Below are positions 34,436 to 39,417 of a stretch of 64,000 bases of DNA, piece after piece. The stretch's first letter is position 1; each line of letters opens with the position of its first letter. Source of the stretch: Gemmata massiliana (GTDB taxonomy: Bacteria; Planctomycetota; Planctomycetia; Gemmatales; Gemmataceae); the NCBI RefSeq assembly GCF_901538265.1, contig NZ_LR593886.1, forward strand, positions 3,741,738 to 3,805,737, given 5' to 3'. Under the pieces are notes generated by a model. The model worked only from the letters and a program-made list of their open reading frames with translations, was not told the origin of the DNA and did not search any database. The position numbers and the translations under genes were made by a program.

Positions 34436-34936
34436 ATGCAGGTGCGTGAGGCGACCATCGCGGACGCGGCCGAGGTGTTGGCGTTCGTGCGCGCGAAAGC
34501 TCAGTTCGACCGAGAGTTGGGTGCCTTCACCGGCGAGTTGGGCACAAGTGAGGAACTCATTCGTCTGCACCTCTTCGGCCCGCGACCGTTCGCGTTCGCT
34601 TTGCTGGCGGGTGGACCGGGTCCGGCCGTCGGGTTCGCCCTCTATTATTTCCGCTACTCGTCCTTTCGGGGGCGCCCGAGTGTCTGGCTGGACGACCTTT
34701 ACGTTCACCCGGCTGCCCGCCGACAAGGGGCCGGGCGGGGGTTGATGGGGCGGCTGGCGGAACTGGCGACCGCGGCCGATTGCACACACATCGCCTGGGT
34801 CGCCAGCGCGAGCAATACGGCCGCCATGAGCTTCTATCAACGGCTGGGAGCCGCCGCGGTCCACCAGACCGGAGATGCGGTAACTCTCCAGATCGAGCCG
34901 GCCGGATTGCTGGCCGCGATAAGCTCCGCCGAATGA
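34436..34936 (+). CDS. GNAT family N-acetyltransferase
   Basis: 166 residues from the ATG at 34436, preceded by GAAGGA. The start MQVREATIADAAEVLAFV is characteristic. The acetyl-CoA motif is YVHPAARRQGAGRGLMGRLA, and the C-terminal block is ASNTAAMSFYQRLGAA. The VWLDDLYVHP stretch resembles diamine and amino-acid N-acetyltransferases. The acceptor is unknown. It lies 128 bp after the ABC genes and converges on the small membrane protein gene across the inverted repeat at 35134-35201. Confidence 0.88.
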   Translation: MQVREATIADAAEVLAFVRAKAQFDRELGAFTGELGTSEELIRLHLFGPRPFAFALLAGGPGPAVGFALYYFRYSSFRGRPSVWLDDLYVHPAARRQGAGRGLMGRLAELATAADCTHIAWVASASNTAAMSFYQRLGAAAVHQTGDAVTLQIEPAGLLAAISSAE

Positions 34937-35133
34937 GGTGCGTTATTCGGGTAGTGTTTGCACGATTTCTCTCTTGCTGTGAGGCAAGGAACTGCAAGCC
35001 GGTGTGCAAGTGACGAGCGCCTCGGGTGCTAATCAAATACCGAAGAAGAAGCATTTTTGACGGGATTAACCGGATCGACGGGATTCAGAAGGTCAATCGT
35101 TTTGGGAGCAGGGCCGTTGAGTTCTGGTGGTTA

Positions 35134-35201
35134 CACCCGCTCGTTAGCACTCGCGGTTCGCCAAAAGATTTAGGCGAACCGCGAGTGCTAACGAGCGGGT
35201 G
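35134..35201. repeat. REP-like inverted repeat B / bidirectional terminator
   Basis: A perfect 29-bp stem: 35134-35162 pairs with 35173-35201 across a 10-nt loop (AAAAGATTTA). It is followed on the plus strand by TGTTTT. It sits between convergent genes (GNAT on plus, microprotein on minus), so it may end both transcripts. Its arm shares 19 of 28 positions with the arm of the repeat at 23306-23407, in the opposite arrangement (GGCGAAC ends facing inwards rather than outwards). Confidence 0.8.
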
Positions 35202-35212
35202 GGTGTTTTAAA

Positions 35213-35335
35213 TTAGAACGACATATAGATAAAAGGCTCGATCGGCAGAGTCATGCGGAACAGCGCGTAGTGTAGGACCACCGCGACACCGAGCCCCAGC
35301 ACGAACGAAAACAGGTAGCGAGCGTACCGGATCAC
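35213..35335 (-). CDS. DltX-like microprotein with C-terminal FIYMSF motif
   Basis: A 40-residue protein found by translating the minus strand. The GTG start overlaps the SGNH stop as GTGA and has a perfect AGGAGG (35343-35348) 7 nt upstream. It has one membrane helix (YLFSFVLGLGVAVVLHYALF) and a short tail ending FIYMSF directly before TAA. This fits the C-terminal FxYxxF pattern of DltX and other microproteins that work with MBOAT and SGNH proteins, where the tyrosine is implicated in acyl transfer. Length, topology, gene order and terminus all agree. No homology search was done; this is by motif and context. Confidence 0.8.
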   Translation of the reverse strand: MIRYARYLFSFVLGLGVAVVLHYALFRMTLPIEPFIYMSF

Positions 35336-36582
35336 GGTTGGGCCTCCTCAAGGTAACCGAGCTGAGCGGCTTTGCGGCGCACGATCGGGGCGAGTTCTGC
35401 GGCCATCCGCCGGCCCCCGGCGACCGTGAGGTGAACGTGGTCGTAGTAGTCGTCGGCCCCGTAGCCCCGGCCCACCTCGACGACCGACACCCCGGCCCGC
35501 TCGTAGATCGCGCTCATGGCCGGCCCCATCGCGTCGTGCGTGAGGCGCTCGTCGGGGGACAGCAGGTTAATAAAGTGCGGGTGCAAACGAGAAGCGACCA
35601 CGATCAGCCGTTCGCGCATCGGGGCCGGGAAATCGTTGCGCAGCCCGGACTCTGCCGGGAACGTCCCCCCGAGTTCGTGGGGCGGGATCACTTCGCCCGA
35701 GGGCCGGCGCAGCACCGGGCGCAACGAGTTGATAATCGCCTGGGTGTGCGGCATGACTTGTGGTTGTAACCTCTCCAAGAGGGCCATCGCTGCGGGGGGG
35801 CAGGTCGGGTCCGGGTCCGGATAGGTCTTCCGGGCGCGGTACCACGTTTTCGCGAGCGGTTTGCACCACACGGACACGGCGTACTCGTACTCGAACCCGT
35901 TCCAGAGGTCGCGGTAATTCAGCCAGCGGTCGAGTCGGGCCTGGCGCTCCATCTCGTCGCGCCGGTTCTGATCCTTTGCACCGGGGGCGCCCGCGTCCGC
36001 CCGTTGGTCCAGTGGCAGCGCGAGGCGCGTGACGCGCTCCGGGGACTCGAGCAACCGGTCGCGGTAATAGGCGTCCCAGAAGAACCACTGGGTCGTCGGG
36101 CGCCCATCCGGTTCGCCGAGCGGGCTGGTCGGCGCGAGCCACATGTTCGTGAGGACGATCATCCGGTGGTGGCCGTCGCGGTACATCATCTCCGCGGCCA
36201 CGGTGCCGAACTCCTGGGGGTCCAGGCCGGGCAGCGCCAGGTTGATGACCTTGTACCGGTCCCCGAGTGCGGCCTGGAGCGCCCGGGTCCACACGCCGTC
36301 CGGCCCCTGCCCGCTGCCGAGGAACACCGAGTTCCCGCCCACCACGACCACGATTTGGTCGGGGCGCGCGGTTTCGTGCATTATCGCGCGCACCTGGTTC
36401 GCGCCGACCTGGTAATTGCTCCGGTAGTCCGTTTCCGCCGTGAACCGCTCGAAGTTCCGGAATATGTTGGTCCGCCCGACCGTGTGCCCGCCCCAGGCGC
36501 AGGCCGCGAATCCGACCACCACGCCGGCCAGCAGCGGCACCGGACTGATCACCCGATCGAGCAGACCATCGAACCGGGGCAT
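35332..36582 (-). CDS. SGNH-type hydrolase/acyltransferase of an O-acylation operon
   Basis: 416 residues with an N-terminal membrane anchor (PVPLLAGVVVGFAACAWGG). The extracytoplasmic part is an SGNH fold: Ser85 in VVVGGNSVFLGSG, and Asp381 with His384 in YYDHVHLTVAGG. This DltD- or AlgX-like arrangement serves to move acyl groups onto cell-surface polymers. It starts 4 bp after the MBOAT stop and its own stop overlaps the microprotein start, so all three are coupled. Target polymer unknown; planctomycetes have no teichoic acid. Confidence 0.85.
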   Translation of the reverse strand: MPRFDGLLDRVISPVPLLAGVVVGFAACAWGGHTVGRTNIFRNFERFTAETDYRSNYQVGANQVRAIMHETARPDQIVVVVGGNSVFLGSGQGPDGVWTRALQAALGDRYKVINLALPGLDPQEFGTVAAEMMYRDGHHRMIVLTNMWLAPTSPLGEPDGRPTTQWFFWDAYYRDRLLESPERVTRLALPLDQRADAGAPGAKDQNRRDEMERQARLDRWLNYRDLWNGFEYEYAVSVWCKPLAKTWYRARKTYPDPDPTCPPAAMALLERLQPQVMPHTQAIINSLRPVLRRPSGEVIPPHELGGTFPAESGLRNDFPAPMRERLIVVASRLHPHFINLLSPDERLTHDAMGPAMSAIYERAGVSVVEVGRGYGADDYYDHVHLTVAGGRRMAAELAPIVRRKAAQLGYLEEAQP

Positions 36583-36586
36583 GGCG

Positions 36587-37783
36587 TCACACCTTTACGA
36601 AGAGGAGCCGGGCCATCTTCATCGCCTCCGGCGCCGGGTAGAAGAACAACAACCAACCGATGGCGACGAACCCCATCGTGAGAACCCAGCCCACGAGCGG
36701 AACCCGGTCGAACACGAAGCCGATCCCGCGCCCGAGCGGTCCCAGTACGTCCCGGTACGTGGAGGCGACGGCGATGCCGACCCCGTGGTACAGGCCCCAC
36801 AGGAGGAAGTTCCACCCCGCGCCGTGCCACAGGCCGCAGATCGCGAACGCGATCAGCCCGTTGACCACCTTGCGCGCCACCCCGCGGCGGTTCCCCCCGA
36901 GGGCGAAGTAGATGTAGTCCCGGATCCACAAACTCAGGGAGATGTGCCACCGCCGCCAGAAGCTCGTGACGCTCCCGGCCAGGTAGGGCCAGCAGAAGTT
37001 CGCGGGGAGCCGGATCCCGAACATCCGGGCGAAGCCGATCGCCATGTCGGAGTAGCCGCTGAAGTCCCACAAGATGCGCAGCGCGAGGAGCCCCAGGAAC
37101 TGCCAGCGGTCGAGGACCGTCATTCCCGCGTAGAGCGGGGCGGAGTAGGCGATCCAACCGGTCAGGTTGTCGGCGGCGAACTTCTTCACGAGCCCGATCG
37201 CGACGCGGACCAGTCCGACCGCCACGTCCTGGCTGTTCACGCCCCCGGCGCCGCACCGGAGCGCTTCAAAGAAGTGCTGGTACCGCTTGACCGGACCGGC
37301 CACGATCGACGGCCAGAAGACGGTAAACAGGGCGAAGTCGAACGGGCTCCGGATCGGCCGGTCGCCCCGGCACACGTCGATCAGGTAGTGGACGAACTCG
37401 AACACGAAGAAGCTGATCGCGAGCGGGGCCGTGATCGCGCGGAGCCCCTGGGCGTGGGCCTCCACGAAGCCCGCCGCACCCGGCCACACCGACACCAGCA
37501 CCTGCGTGGCGAGGAACGTGGCGTACTTGTAGTAGATCAGCGCCAAGCAGCTCGCGGCGATGCCCGCGTAACACGGCCCGCGCCAGCGCGTGAGCCCCGC
37601 CAGATAGACGAACGTCCCCAGCACGACGATCGGAACGACCCCGGCCGGACCCGCGAAGTGCGTGTGGAACGTGACGCTACCGACGAGTAGGATCAAGCGG
37701 CGAAACGCCGGGAATGGGCAGAACCAATATACCGGGTAAAGTGAGACAATGAAAAATACGAACCAATAAGTCAAGAACAACAT
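36587..37783 (-). CDS. MBOAT family O-acyltransferase
   Basis: 398 residues with about ten membrane helices, homologous by motif to DltB and AlgI. FWRRWHISLSLWIRDYIYF and the active-site CGLWHGAGWNFLLWG are visible, with His320 as the catalytic histidine. MBOAT proteins pass an acyl group across the membrane to a partner on the outer face. It is the first gene of the MBOAT-SGNH-microprotein operon. The ATG at 37783 has no strong ribosome-binding site that I can see; a promoter should lie in the 581-bp region upstream. Confidence 0.93.
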   Translation of the reverse strand: MLFLTYWFVFFIVSLYPVYWFCPFPAFRRLILLVGSVTFHTHFAGPAGVVPIVVLGTFVYLAGLTRWRGPCYAGIAASCLALIYYKYATFLATQVLVSVWPGAAGFVEAHAQGLRAITAPLAISFFVFEFVHYLIDVCRGDRPIRSPFDFALFTVFWPSIVAGPVKRYQHFFEALRCGAGGVNSQDVAVGLVRVAIGLVKKFAADNLTGWIAYSAPLYAGMTVLDRWQFLGLLALRILWDFSGYSDMAIGFARMFGIRLPANFCWPYLAGSVTSFWRRWHISLSLWIRDYIYFALGGNRRGVARKVVNGLIAFAICGLWHGAGWNFLLWGLYHGVGIAVASTYRDVLGPLGRGIGFVFDRVPLVGWVLTMGFVAIGWLLFFYPAPEAMKMARLLFVKV

Positions 37784-38364
37784 AGGGGTCGCCCCAGACC
37801 AGTGATTCGCAGACTTTTTCAGTACCCGTATCGGCCCGTCACGAGCCTCGACTGCAACATTTTCGCCGCATGATTGTCAGGTCGTTAGGCGAGTAATGCC
37901 CGATCTGTTCTGGGAGCGGAGGGGTAGAAAAGATCGTACGGGGGCGAAACCTCACGTCGCGCGATTCGCCGGAATCCGGTCTTTACAAATACTGAACATA
38001 AGTTTAAAATTCATCGAGGTGAATCGGCCCACGGCGTGCGTGGTCGTGAGGCGCTTTGCGGTTACGAAGCGGGCAAGAAATGGAGAAAATGGCGGAGGAT
38101 GTTAGCCGAATCAGCGCCGGGAACGTCTGCCGAGTAGCATAACCTCCAGGAAAATGGAGAAAATGATACAAGATGTTACGGCCGAAACGGGGAACTGGTC
38201 ACGTATCGGCACAGGTTCGCAAGAAATCTCAGTCGTTAATGTGTTTCTCAGCGGGGGCACTGGCTCCCGGACCCGAAAACGTTAGCAATTGTTAGCAGGG
38301 CTTCCCGAGGCCCATTACAAGTGGGGTGGTTCGTGGAAGAACGTCAACGCGGATTGATGCGCGA
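37784..38364. promoter_or_regulatory. Divergent intergenic region with repeats
   Basis: 581 bp between the MBOAT gene (minus) and an ABC permease (plus), AT-rich for this genome. AAATGGAGAAAATG occurs twice, at 38078-38091 and 38152-38165, each followed within 9 nt by ATGTTA. GTTAGCAATTGTTAGC lies at 38281-38296; its first 14 nt recur at 62549-62562. No gene supported; a 69-codon frame at 37896-38105 has no features of a real protein. Confidence 0.5.
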
Positions 38365-39417
38365 ATGAGTAACGAACCACTGACCGCGCTTGAGAGCGGC
38401 CCGCGCACGGCGCCCCCCGATCAGCTCCCGAGTGTGCTCCGCGCGTGGGTTGTGCTCGTCGTGCAGAGCTTTCAGCGGCACTGGCGCGTGCGGCAGATGG
38501 GCTGGGTGTCGGTGGCGCTGCTCGGGCTGGTCGTGTTGTGGGTTTCGGTCGTCACGGTTCGCGGGGGCTGGGATCTCGCGAATCAGAGGGCGCGCCGGAG
38601 TGCGAACACCAACGCGGAAGAGGCCGCGCGCCTCACCCCCGGTTACCGTTACCGCGCCCTCGACGCGGATGAAATGCTGTTCTTCCGAATGCACGAGGTT
38701 CCGAACCCGCTGAACCCGACCGAAGACGCACTGACCTCGCTGATGCTGTCGATCCCGCAAGCCGCGATGCGGTCCGAAGCGTTCCTCAAGAGCTGGGCCT
38801 TCATGACCTACTCGCGGTGGGTCATCATGCTCGTGTTCATGGGGTTCATTTTGCCACTGTTCACGCTCTCTTACGCGAGCGGGGCGTTCGGCACGGATCG
38901 CGAGAGCCGCTCGCTCGTGTGGCTCATGACGCGGCCCATCCCGCGGAGCGGTATCTACTTAGCGAAATTCCTCGGCACGCTCCCGTGGTGCGTTTCGTTC
39001 GGCGCGGGCGGGTTCGTGGCGGTGTGCCTTGCGGCGGGCGACATCGGGCGCGAGGCGCTGACGCGGTACTGGCCCGCGGTCGCGATGGGAACGGTCGCGT
39101 TCTCGGCGCTGTTCCACCTGATCGGTGCGATCTTTCGCCGACCGGTTGTGGTGGGGCTCGTGTACGTGTTCTTTTTCGAGACGGTGGTGGCGGCCCTGCC
39201 GGGCAGTTTGAAGTTACTGAGCCTGACCTTTTACGTTCGCTCGTTGATGTATAATGAAGCCGTGGCCGCGGGGCACCCCGGTGACATGCTCCCCGCGATC
39301 ACCAGTCAGGCCGTCTCGTCTGAAACCGCGTGGGCGGTGCTGGCCGCAGCGCCGGTTGTTATTACGATCATCGGTATGTGGCTGTTTTCCCGGTCCGAGT
39401 ACCGCGACGATATTTGA
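38365..39417 (+). CDS. ABC-2-type transporter permease
   Basis: 350 residues from the ATG at 38365. Six membrane helices: one near residue 50, then a soluble loop of about 80 residues, and five from about residue 155 on (for example WVIMLVFMGFILPLFTLSYA and TAWAVLAAAPVVITIIGMWL). The block GTDRESRSLVWLMTRPIPRSG after helix 2 is the ABC-2 coupling motif. No ATPase gene is adjacent; it may pair with one of the ATPases at 30994-34307 or with one outside. Cytidylate kinase-like follows 50 bp downstream. Confidence 0.85.
   Translation: MSNEPLTALESGPRTAPPDQLPSVLRAWVVLVVQSFQRHWRVRQMGWVSVALLGLVVLWVSVVTVRGGWDLANQRARRSANTNAEEAARLTPGYRYRALDADEMLFFRMHEVPNPLNPTEDALTSLMLSIPQAAMRSEAFLKSWAFMTYSRWVIMLVFMGFILPLFTLSYASGAFGTDRESRSLVWLMTRPIPRSGIYLAKFLGTLPWCVSFGAGGFVAVCLAAGDIGREALTRYWPAVAMGTVAFSALFHLIGAIFRRPVVVGLVYVFFFETVVAALPGSLKLLSLTFYVRSLMYNEAVAAGHPGDMLPAITSQAVSSETAWAVLAAAPVVITIIGMWLFSRSEYRDDI

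Follow-up and report, generated by a model that had tools for sequence, protein, structure and literature searches.

A candidate acyl-shuttle microprotein encoded beside an MBOAT–SGNH gene pair in Gemmata massiliana and a few related planctomycetes

Organization of the locus

The window analyzed here, a stretch of 64,000 nucleotides from Gemmata massiliana (contig NZ_LR593886.1, positions 3,741,738 to 3,805,737), contains a compact trio of genes coding for an MBOAT O-acyltransferase, an SGNH-type protein and a membrane microprotein. We propose that the three proteins form an acyl-transfer machine operating outside the Dlt pathway, in which the microprotein probably carries the shuttle motif that its MBOAT lacks. 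The features of the locus, in the coordinates of the window, are as follows:

37783 to 35213, minus strand: the trio (MBOAT, SGNH-type protein and microprotein), read from the sequence
36587..37783, minus strand: MBOAT O-acyltransferase, 398 residues, with a short DltB-like C-terminus without an FxYxxF of its own (PF03062; structure and profile matches)
36824..36826, minus strand: codon of the proposed catalytic His320 (LWHGAGW) of the MBOAT, invariant in 6/6
35332..36582, minus strand: SGNH-type transferase, 416 residues, with an N-terminal membrane anchor and a proposed DltD-like role (residues, model)
36328..36330, minus strand: codon of the proposed nucleophile Ser85 (GGNS) of the SGNH protein (alignment)
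35431..35442, minus strand: codons Asp381 to His384 (DHVH), proposed remainder of the catalytic triad of the SGNH protein (alignment)
35213..35335, minus strand: membrane microprotein, 40 residues, proposed acyl shuttle, DltX-like by role (conservation beside the MBOAT)
35258..35314, minus strand: predicted single transmembrane helix, microprotein residues 8–26 (hydropathy)
35216..35233, minus strand: C-terminal FIYMSF of the microprotein, with the Tyr37 codon at 35225–35227 (motif, alignment)
35343..35348, minus strand: Shine–Dalgarno-like AGGAGG inside the end of the SGNH gene, 7 nucleotides ahead of the microprotein GTG

The genes are tightly packed: 4 nucleotides separate the MBOAT gene from the SGNH gene, and the GTG start of the microprotein gene overlaps the SGNH stop codon (GTGA), with a spacer of 7 nucleotides to the AGGAGG. 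The microprotein reads VIRYARYLFSFVLGLGVAVVLHYALFRMTLPIEPFIYMSF. What an earlier note, made from the sequence alone, had picked out in these genes is present as claimed, namely His320 within LWHGAGW of the MBOAT, Ser85, Asp381 and His384 of the SGNH protein (each invariant in five of five aligned SGNH proteins) and a 40-residue single-helix protein with its GTGA overlap, perfect AGGAGG and FIYMSF end. Its further remark that the microprotein falls below the usual gene-caller cut-offs is doubtful, the gene being 123 nucleotides long as against the 90 nucleotides that Prodigal takes as its default minimum gene length.

Conservation of the microprotein as a gene

Full-length close relatives of the MBOAT number six, the window copy included, and are found in five of 95 Gemmataceae genomes: that of G. 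massiliana itself (G000), G011 (91% identical to the window copy), G027 (two copies, 60% and 57%), G041 (57%) and G048 (52%); the next ten MBOAT rows by score are 39–45% identical. In all five of the genomes with a full-length orthologous MBOAT, an open reading frame of 39–40 residues adjoins the MBOAT–SGNH genes and closes with a PFIYxxF signature, realized as PFIYMSF, PFIYMAF, PFIYLAF or PFIYQAF. The other four microproteins are 95, 64, 51 and 46% identical to the window copy, and the alignment of the five has 15 invariant columns, among them F35, I36, Y37 and F40 of the terminal motif and, equally, L21–Y23, R27 and L30–P31. The earlier note had named conservation of the FxYxxF terminus in orthologous loci as a test of its proposal, and the terminus is conserved in the five of five genomes. 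A profile of the five members recovers the same five genomes at E ≤ 1.6e-23 among 102 genomes of the order, the next best match having an E-value of 0.009. At E ≤ 1 some match arises in 53 of the 102, and those from 0.009 upward were taken as chance: six of these weak matches, inspected by sequence pattern, yielded nothing, and none of 25 weak-match loci (L044–L068) holds an open reading frame of at least 25 residues with an F.Y..F end.

The background frequency of such endings is likewise low. The window has 671 start-to-stop open reading frames of at least 25 residues, and the microprotein is the sole one with an F.Y..F ending; across 30 loci (L039–L068, of which L042 is the window's copy) 1048 such frames were counted, and the ending is confined to the five microproteins. 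A search of the contigs of 84,980 species with two peptide patterns returned 18 candidate stretches, three of them relatives. Phylum-wide (392 genomes, E ≤ 0.001), the profile matched the G. massiliana genome and one further place, in G471. That match (E 2.8e-4) was set aside as probably due to chance: none of the frames there closes with the motif, and no long frame around it was recognised as MBOAT-like.

The arrangement of the genes is variable: MBOAT–SGNH–microprotein in G000 and G011, MBOAT–SGNH–MBOAT–SGNH–microprotein in G027, microprotein–SGNH–MBOAT in G041 and MBOAT–microprotein–SGNH in G048. Since the gene order varies while the trio stays together, the microprotein appears to be an independent gene kept with the MBOAT–SGNH pair. 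Between G000 and G011 it has accumulated about 6 synonymous and about 2 nonsynonymous changes, giving a ratio of nonsynonymous to synonymous rates (dN/dS) of about 0.10 on these small numbers, beside 0.17 for the MBOAT and 0.21 for the SGNH protein, and the DNA similarity of the two genomes ceases about 10 nucleotides past the microprotein stop codon. A chance reading frame next to an MBOAT–SGNH pair that works alone could appeal to a length of merely 40 residues and to the lack of a family match over cut-off; against it stand the occurrence in five of five genomes, the shifted gene orders, the few nonsynonymous changes and the absence of background matches. Conservation, gene-order change and background counts rule it out, and we give it next to no credence. 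A fusion hidden by a frameshift in the Gemmataceae trio is ruled out too, as the microprotein precedes the SGNH gene in G041 and sits between the MBOAT and SGNH genes in G048. From these comparisons we regard the microprotein as very likely a real gene.

An MBOAT without its tail

The MBOAT passes the curated cut-off of its family, PF03062, with 82.5 bits against 27. His280 (RRWHIS) and His320 (LWHG) are invariant among the trio MBOATs, the latter in six of six, and His320 aligns with the histidine of GFWHG in DltB. By profile the best solved relative is DltB (6bug, E 2.6e-31), and DltB likewise has the best Foldseek E-value (2.4e-8) for a structural model with a predicted local distance difference test (pLDDT) score of 72.6.

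The distinguishing feature of these MBOATs is where they end. All six trio members stop 80–83 residues after the last WHG, without an FxYxxF, whereas 35 of the 37 non-trio rows of the first-tree set end in the motif, 131–179 residues past the last WHG. As the “fused” rows were labelled by the motif itself, the telling figure is the 35 of 37; the two rows without the motif are a DltB, with 66 residues past the WHG, and the MBOAT of G322 (62 residues), discussed below. Among 25 other Gemmataceae MBOAT loci (L008–L032), 24 have a long MBOAT itself ending in FxYxxF, and the other, L026, is close to the end of its contig.

The second MBOAT of the G. massiliana genome (G000:C1:7693908-7695077, L082) is of the fused type and ends in FIYFQF; both ways of carrying the motif thus coexist in one genome.

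Each of the five microproteins has a single predicted transmembrane helix and closes with the motif, and the hydropathy, together with N-side positive charges counted in four of the five, suggests an orientation with the N-terminus inside and the C-terminus outside. The annotated DltX of Staphylococcus and an unannotated DltX-like open reading frame beside a DltB-like gene (Niallia record) have the same build, one helix followed by FIYNEF or YIYNDF. Because the trio MBOAT is without the tail and the motif is on the microprotein, the latter would take the part that DltX plays for DltB. Hence, the microprotein probably carries the acyl-shuttle tail that the trio MBOAT lacks and would be DltX-like by role.

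Relationship to Dlt and other MBOAT systems

The closest counterpart in layout is the dlt locus, for which that of CP052031.1 served as a reference: it shares with the trio a separate single-helix microprotein with a C-terminal FxYxxF, a short MBOAT and an SGNH partner, and for the partners in the trio DltB and DltD head the lists of solved structures. The differences are that the trio was seen without dltA or dltC alongside, has another gene order and a Gemmataceae host, and misses the cut-offs of the DltX, DltB and DltA families. The trio thus looks like DltB–DltX–DltD in its layout and falls short of Dlt in these family-level tests.

These likenesses raise the alternative of a Dlt system in reduced or distant form, with a thioester donor (D-alanine or another amino acid) on a carrier encoded elsewhere and an MBOAT and microprotein descended with DltB and DltX. 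Beyond the first rank of the DltB and DltD structures, it is favored by the match of the MBOAT to the DltB equivalog LTA_dltB (TIGR04091, NCBIfam), which at 153.1 bits stays below the cut-off of 375, and by a clade of trio plus DltB that the tree comparison does not reject (given below). However, the MBOAT is nearer to other Gemmataceae MBOATs, at the 39–45% identity given above, than to a DltB (H19, about 28%). Further, the DltA family (TIGR01734) has seven matches in the own genome, of the weaker AMP-ligase kind, the best with 221.1 bits and none over the cut-off of 559.85; DltX (PF12459) gave no match in the own genome and five relatives, in a search whose controls matched in 2 of 14; and the 20 neighbouring frames scanned (window, G027, G041 and G048) showed no gene for a carrier protein or a ligase. 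We therefore consider descent as a reduced Dlt system unlikely, and prefer to see the trio as a non-Dlt machine.

Among the non-Dlt systems, the PatA/PatB and AlgI/AlgJ pairs share with the trio the combination of MBOAT and SGNH protein, the same hexapeptide and possibly the same acyl-CoA donor, and the next-closest family relatives of the trio MBOAT are of this fused type; in the trio, the tail is instead a separate one-helix gene. Fused MBOATs are described in passages of PMC12148441 as having two extra helices. The same passages describe for OatA-type AT3–SGNH enzymes a relay from acyl-tyrosine to SGNH serine, like that envisaged here; those enzymes differ in having AT3 instead of MBOAT and in being a single polypeptide.

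The SGNH partner

The SGNH protein exceeds the cut-off of no Pfam or NCBIfam family; GDSL_2 matches weakly in two of the five members (best E 0.059). Compared with solved structures by VIA-align, its model gives rows that include DltD and GDSL esterases at Z 9–11.6. The top four are DltD structures (Z 10.8–11.6, 244–266 residues aligned), and the remaining SGNH-type entries, mostly smaller, have Z ≤ 10.5 and fewer than 200 residues aligned. Since rows within 1 of Z rank as equal, a likeness to DltD is better argued from alignment length. On the strength of the model, we propose that the SGNH protein is DltD-like in role. As a limited test for SGNH relatives beside fused MBOATs, a tblastn search with the five trio SGNH proteins against the other MBOAT loci, most of them represented with 1500-nucleotide flanks only, produced one weak match (E 0.013).

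Proposed mechanism

We advance the following mechanism, in which the trio would act as a transmembrane acyl-transfer machine working like DltB–DltX–DltD. The donor of the acyl group would be cytoplasmic and is most likely acetyl-CoA or a different acyl-CoA, as no carrier or ligase gene is found among the 20 neighbouring frames scanned. Through His320, the MBOAT would accept the group and load it onto Tyr37 of FIYMSF at the outer face of the membrane. The next carrier would be Ser85 on the SGNH protein, itself anchored in the membrane, and this protein would in turn esterify an envelope glycan. There are precedents for the individual steps: as reported in parts of PMC12148441, the C-terminal hexapeptide of PatA receives on its tyrosine the acetyl group of acetyl-CoA, a step that requires the MBOAT histidine, and the acetyl-tyrosine peptide is a donor for PatB; passages of PMC11035591 report the same motif of DltX to be conserved and required. 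Taken together, we put the probability of a non-Dlt acyl-transfer machine with a Tyr37 relay, an acyl-CoA donor and a glycan acceptor at roughly 0.8. The view of the earlier note, of an acyl-transfer machine acting on some envelope polymer, gains on the side of the machine, from an MBOAT with a short end needing a separate shuttle and from DltD ranking first for the SGNH protein (within the tie range of Z); the polymer stays a proposal. Among the genes downstream of the trio in G027 are one for a nucleotidyltransferase and one for a protein with a SIS domain, in keeping with a glycan locus.

Several observations weigh against the mechanism. The DltX family PF12459 is absent among the matches of the microprotein at E ≤ 10, and the TM-score (template-modelling score) of HHAT for the MBOAT model equals or exceeds that of DltB. 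The SGNH assignment relies on three residues together with a structural model of medium confidence (pLDDT 63.7, with residues 85–95 below 50): Foldseek finds no match for it at E ≤ 0.001, the best being 8zbc (E 4.8e-3), whose entry title names an acyltransferase of selective perhydrolytic activity, with DltD (7dxm) fourth at E 0.023; the best solved match by profile is the esterase TesA (E 0.056); and by Z other SGNH enzymes fall within the tie range of DltD. Sugar-nucleotide type genes occur near the trio in G027 alone among the neighbourhoods scanned, and the neighbours in the window are mainly ABC (ATP-binding cassette) transporter genes. Close to the end of a contig, G025 has a fragment of 61 residues that matches the start of the trio MBOAT (74% identity) and carries an in-frame stop (G025:C155:7523-7705, L037), and there is no microprotein match in this genome; the fragment is possibly a remnant of the trio. 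Finally, translation of the microprotein, complex formation, acyl-tyrosine chemistry, donor and acceptor are what we infer.

A different role for the microprotein also has to be weighed, namely that of a structural or assembly subunit, with the acyl group going from the MBOAT to the SGNH protein without a tyrosine intermediate. Single-helix microproteins often serve as scaffolds, and the non-motif positions noted above are as invariant as the motif. Against this, the motif is the same as the acetyl carrier of PatA, as described in parts of PMC12148441, and the trio MBOAT is of the type without the motif. A purely structural role is, in our assessment, quite improbable, and Tyr37 of the microprotein remains our favored candidate for the acyl carrier.

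A possible second split in another planctomycete class

Outside the Gemmataceae, the matches listed for the 392 phylum genomes include a single further MBOAT that is complete and short and does not have the motif, in a genome of another Planctomycetota class (G322, L080 5315-7635). Five nucleotides after this MBOAT gene comes a frame of 57 codons with one helix and a FIYIDF end, followed by an SGNH-like gene. The MBOAT of G490 is short by frame, yet ends in the motif, and partial MBOAT rows at contig ends were left out (for example G204:C132 and G357:C480, both short and at contig starts). Within the class of G322 (23 genomes), eight of the 11 other matching loci are readable, and all eight end in a fused motif; across 397 class genomes, no other frame below 439 residues occurs among the matches listed. 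The first tree joins the G322 MBOAT to the trio (99/96), with a warning of a long branch. The G322 split may share its origin with the trio or may be separate, and it may represent a fission or an assembly error.

The tandem arrangement in G027 (L033 6360-11339) offers an observation of another kind. Its two MBOATs are 85% identical and the two SGNH proteins 41%, and a single microprotein follows the second pair. This may mean that one shuttle serves two SGNH transferases that have diverged, or that the MBOATs have undergone gene conversion. Tentatively, and at somewhat less than even odds, we suggest that a stand-alone shuttle outside Dlt is present in at least two Planctomycetota lineages, the Gemmataceae trio and G322, and that the G027 shuttle serves as a shared hub for different acceptors.

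Origin and genomic context of the trio

The trio MBOATs group together with 100/100 support in both trees computed, in the first of them among fused-type MBOATs; L015, L026, L084, L087 and L089 were left out of the first tree, having no frame by the pattern used. The second tree was extended by three DltB proteins, and there a grouping of the trio with DltB is not rejected, its p-value in the approximately unbiased test (p-AU) being 0.32. This second tree took in L087 and L089 besides the dltB of L084 and the DltB of L115 and omitted L080 for its long branch; L086 offered no usable MBOAT. The trio MBOAT may have arisen by fission of a fused MBOAT or may go back to an old kinship with DltB.

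The trio of G000 and G011 is flanked by genes for an ABC ATPase and an ABC permease, and the permease is found in 18 of the 19 genomes of the genus. In five trio-less genomes (G009, G024, G026, G010 and G012), the ATPase and permease genes are adjacent in five of five, with a GNAT gene between them in G009. This comparison indicates that the three genes are present or absent as one block, microprotein included. Compared with L128–L132, window 34938–38326 presents the trio as an insertion-like block: about 2.9 kb of the window corresponds to some 220 bp in G009, the closest by its permease (95% identity to that of the window), and the less close G011 (91%) carries the block.

As for other elements, an Rfam search of 34800–38400 gave no match, and scans of the locus for promoters and terminators produced nothing convincing. 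Directly after the microprotein gene, window 35130–35206 holds a long, nearly perfect hairpin. A BLAST search of the own genome returned at least 82 rows for it, many places matching on both strands (the best 40 of 117 candidates being scored); it is a genome-wide repeat family and not a feature of the operon.

Implications

The open-licence literature, surveyed by titles and abstract openings, contained no report of such a microprotein outside Dlt. A 2023 Nature Microbiology paper on the Dlt mechanism is said to have reported fused motifs elsewhere, and reportedly is the source of the statement that no such microprotein accompanies other MBOATs. In the passages of a 2025 paper (PMC12148441), non-Dlt MBOAT pathways are stated to be without a DltX-like microprotein, the motif being fused to the MBOAT. 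Gene content and conservation point to a probable separate shuttle microprotein in a non-Dlt MBOAT–SGNH system of a few planctomycetes, a role that the literature surveyed assigns to a small protein of its own in Dlt alone.

The trio would thus provide a counter-example, with comparative support, to that statement as it stands in those passages. If our reading holds, the microprotein would be a natural, small and separable acyl carrier outside the chemistry of teichoic acids. Further, it would make the tyrosine-shuttle model testable in trans, as the carrier may be swapped, mutated or supplied as a peptide with the MBOAT left untouched. More generally, it illustrates how six terminal residues and the surrounding genes may reveal the likely function of a gene of 40 codons.

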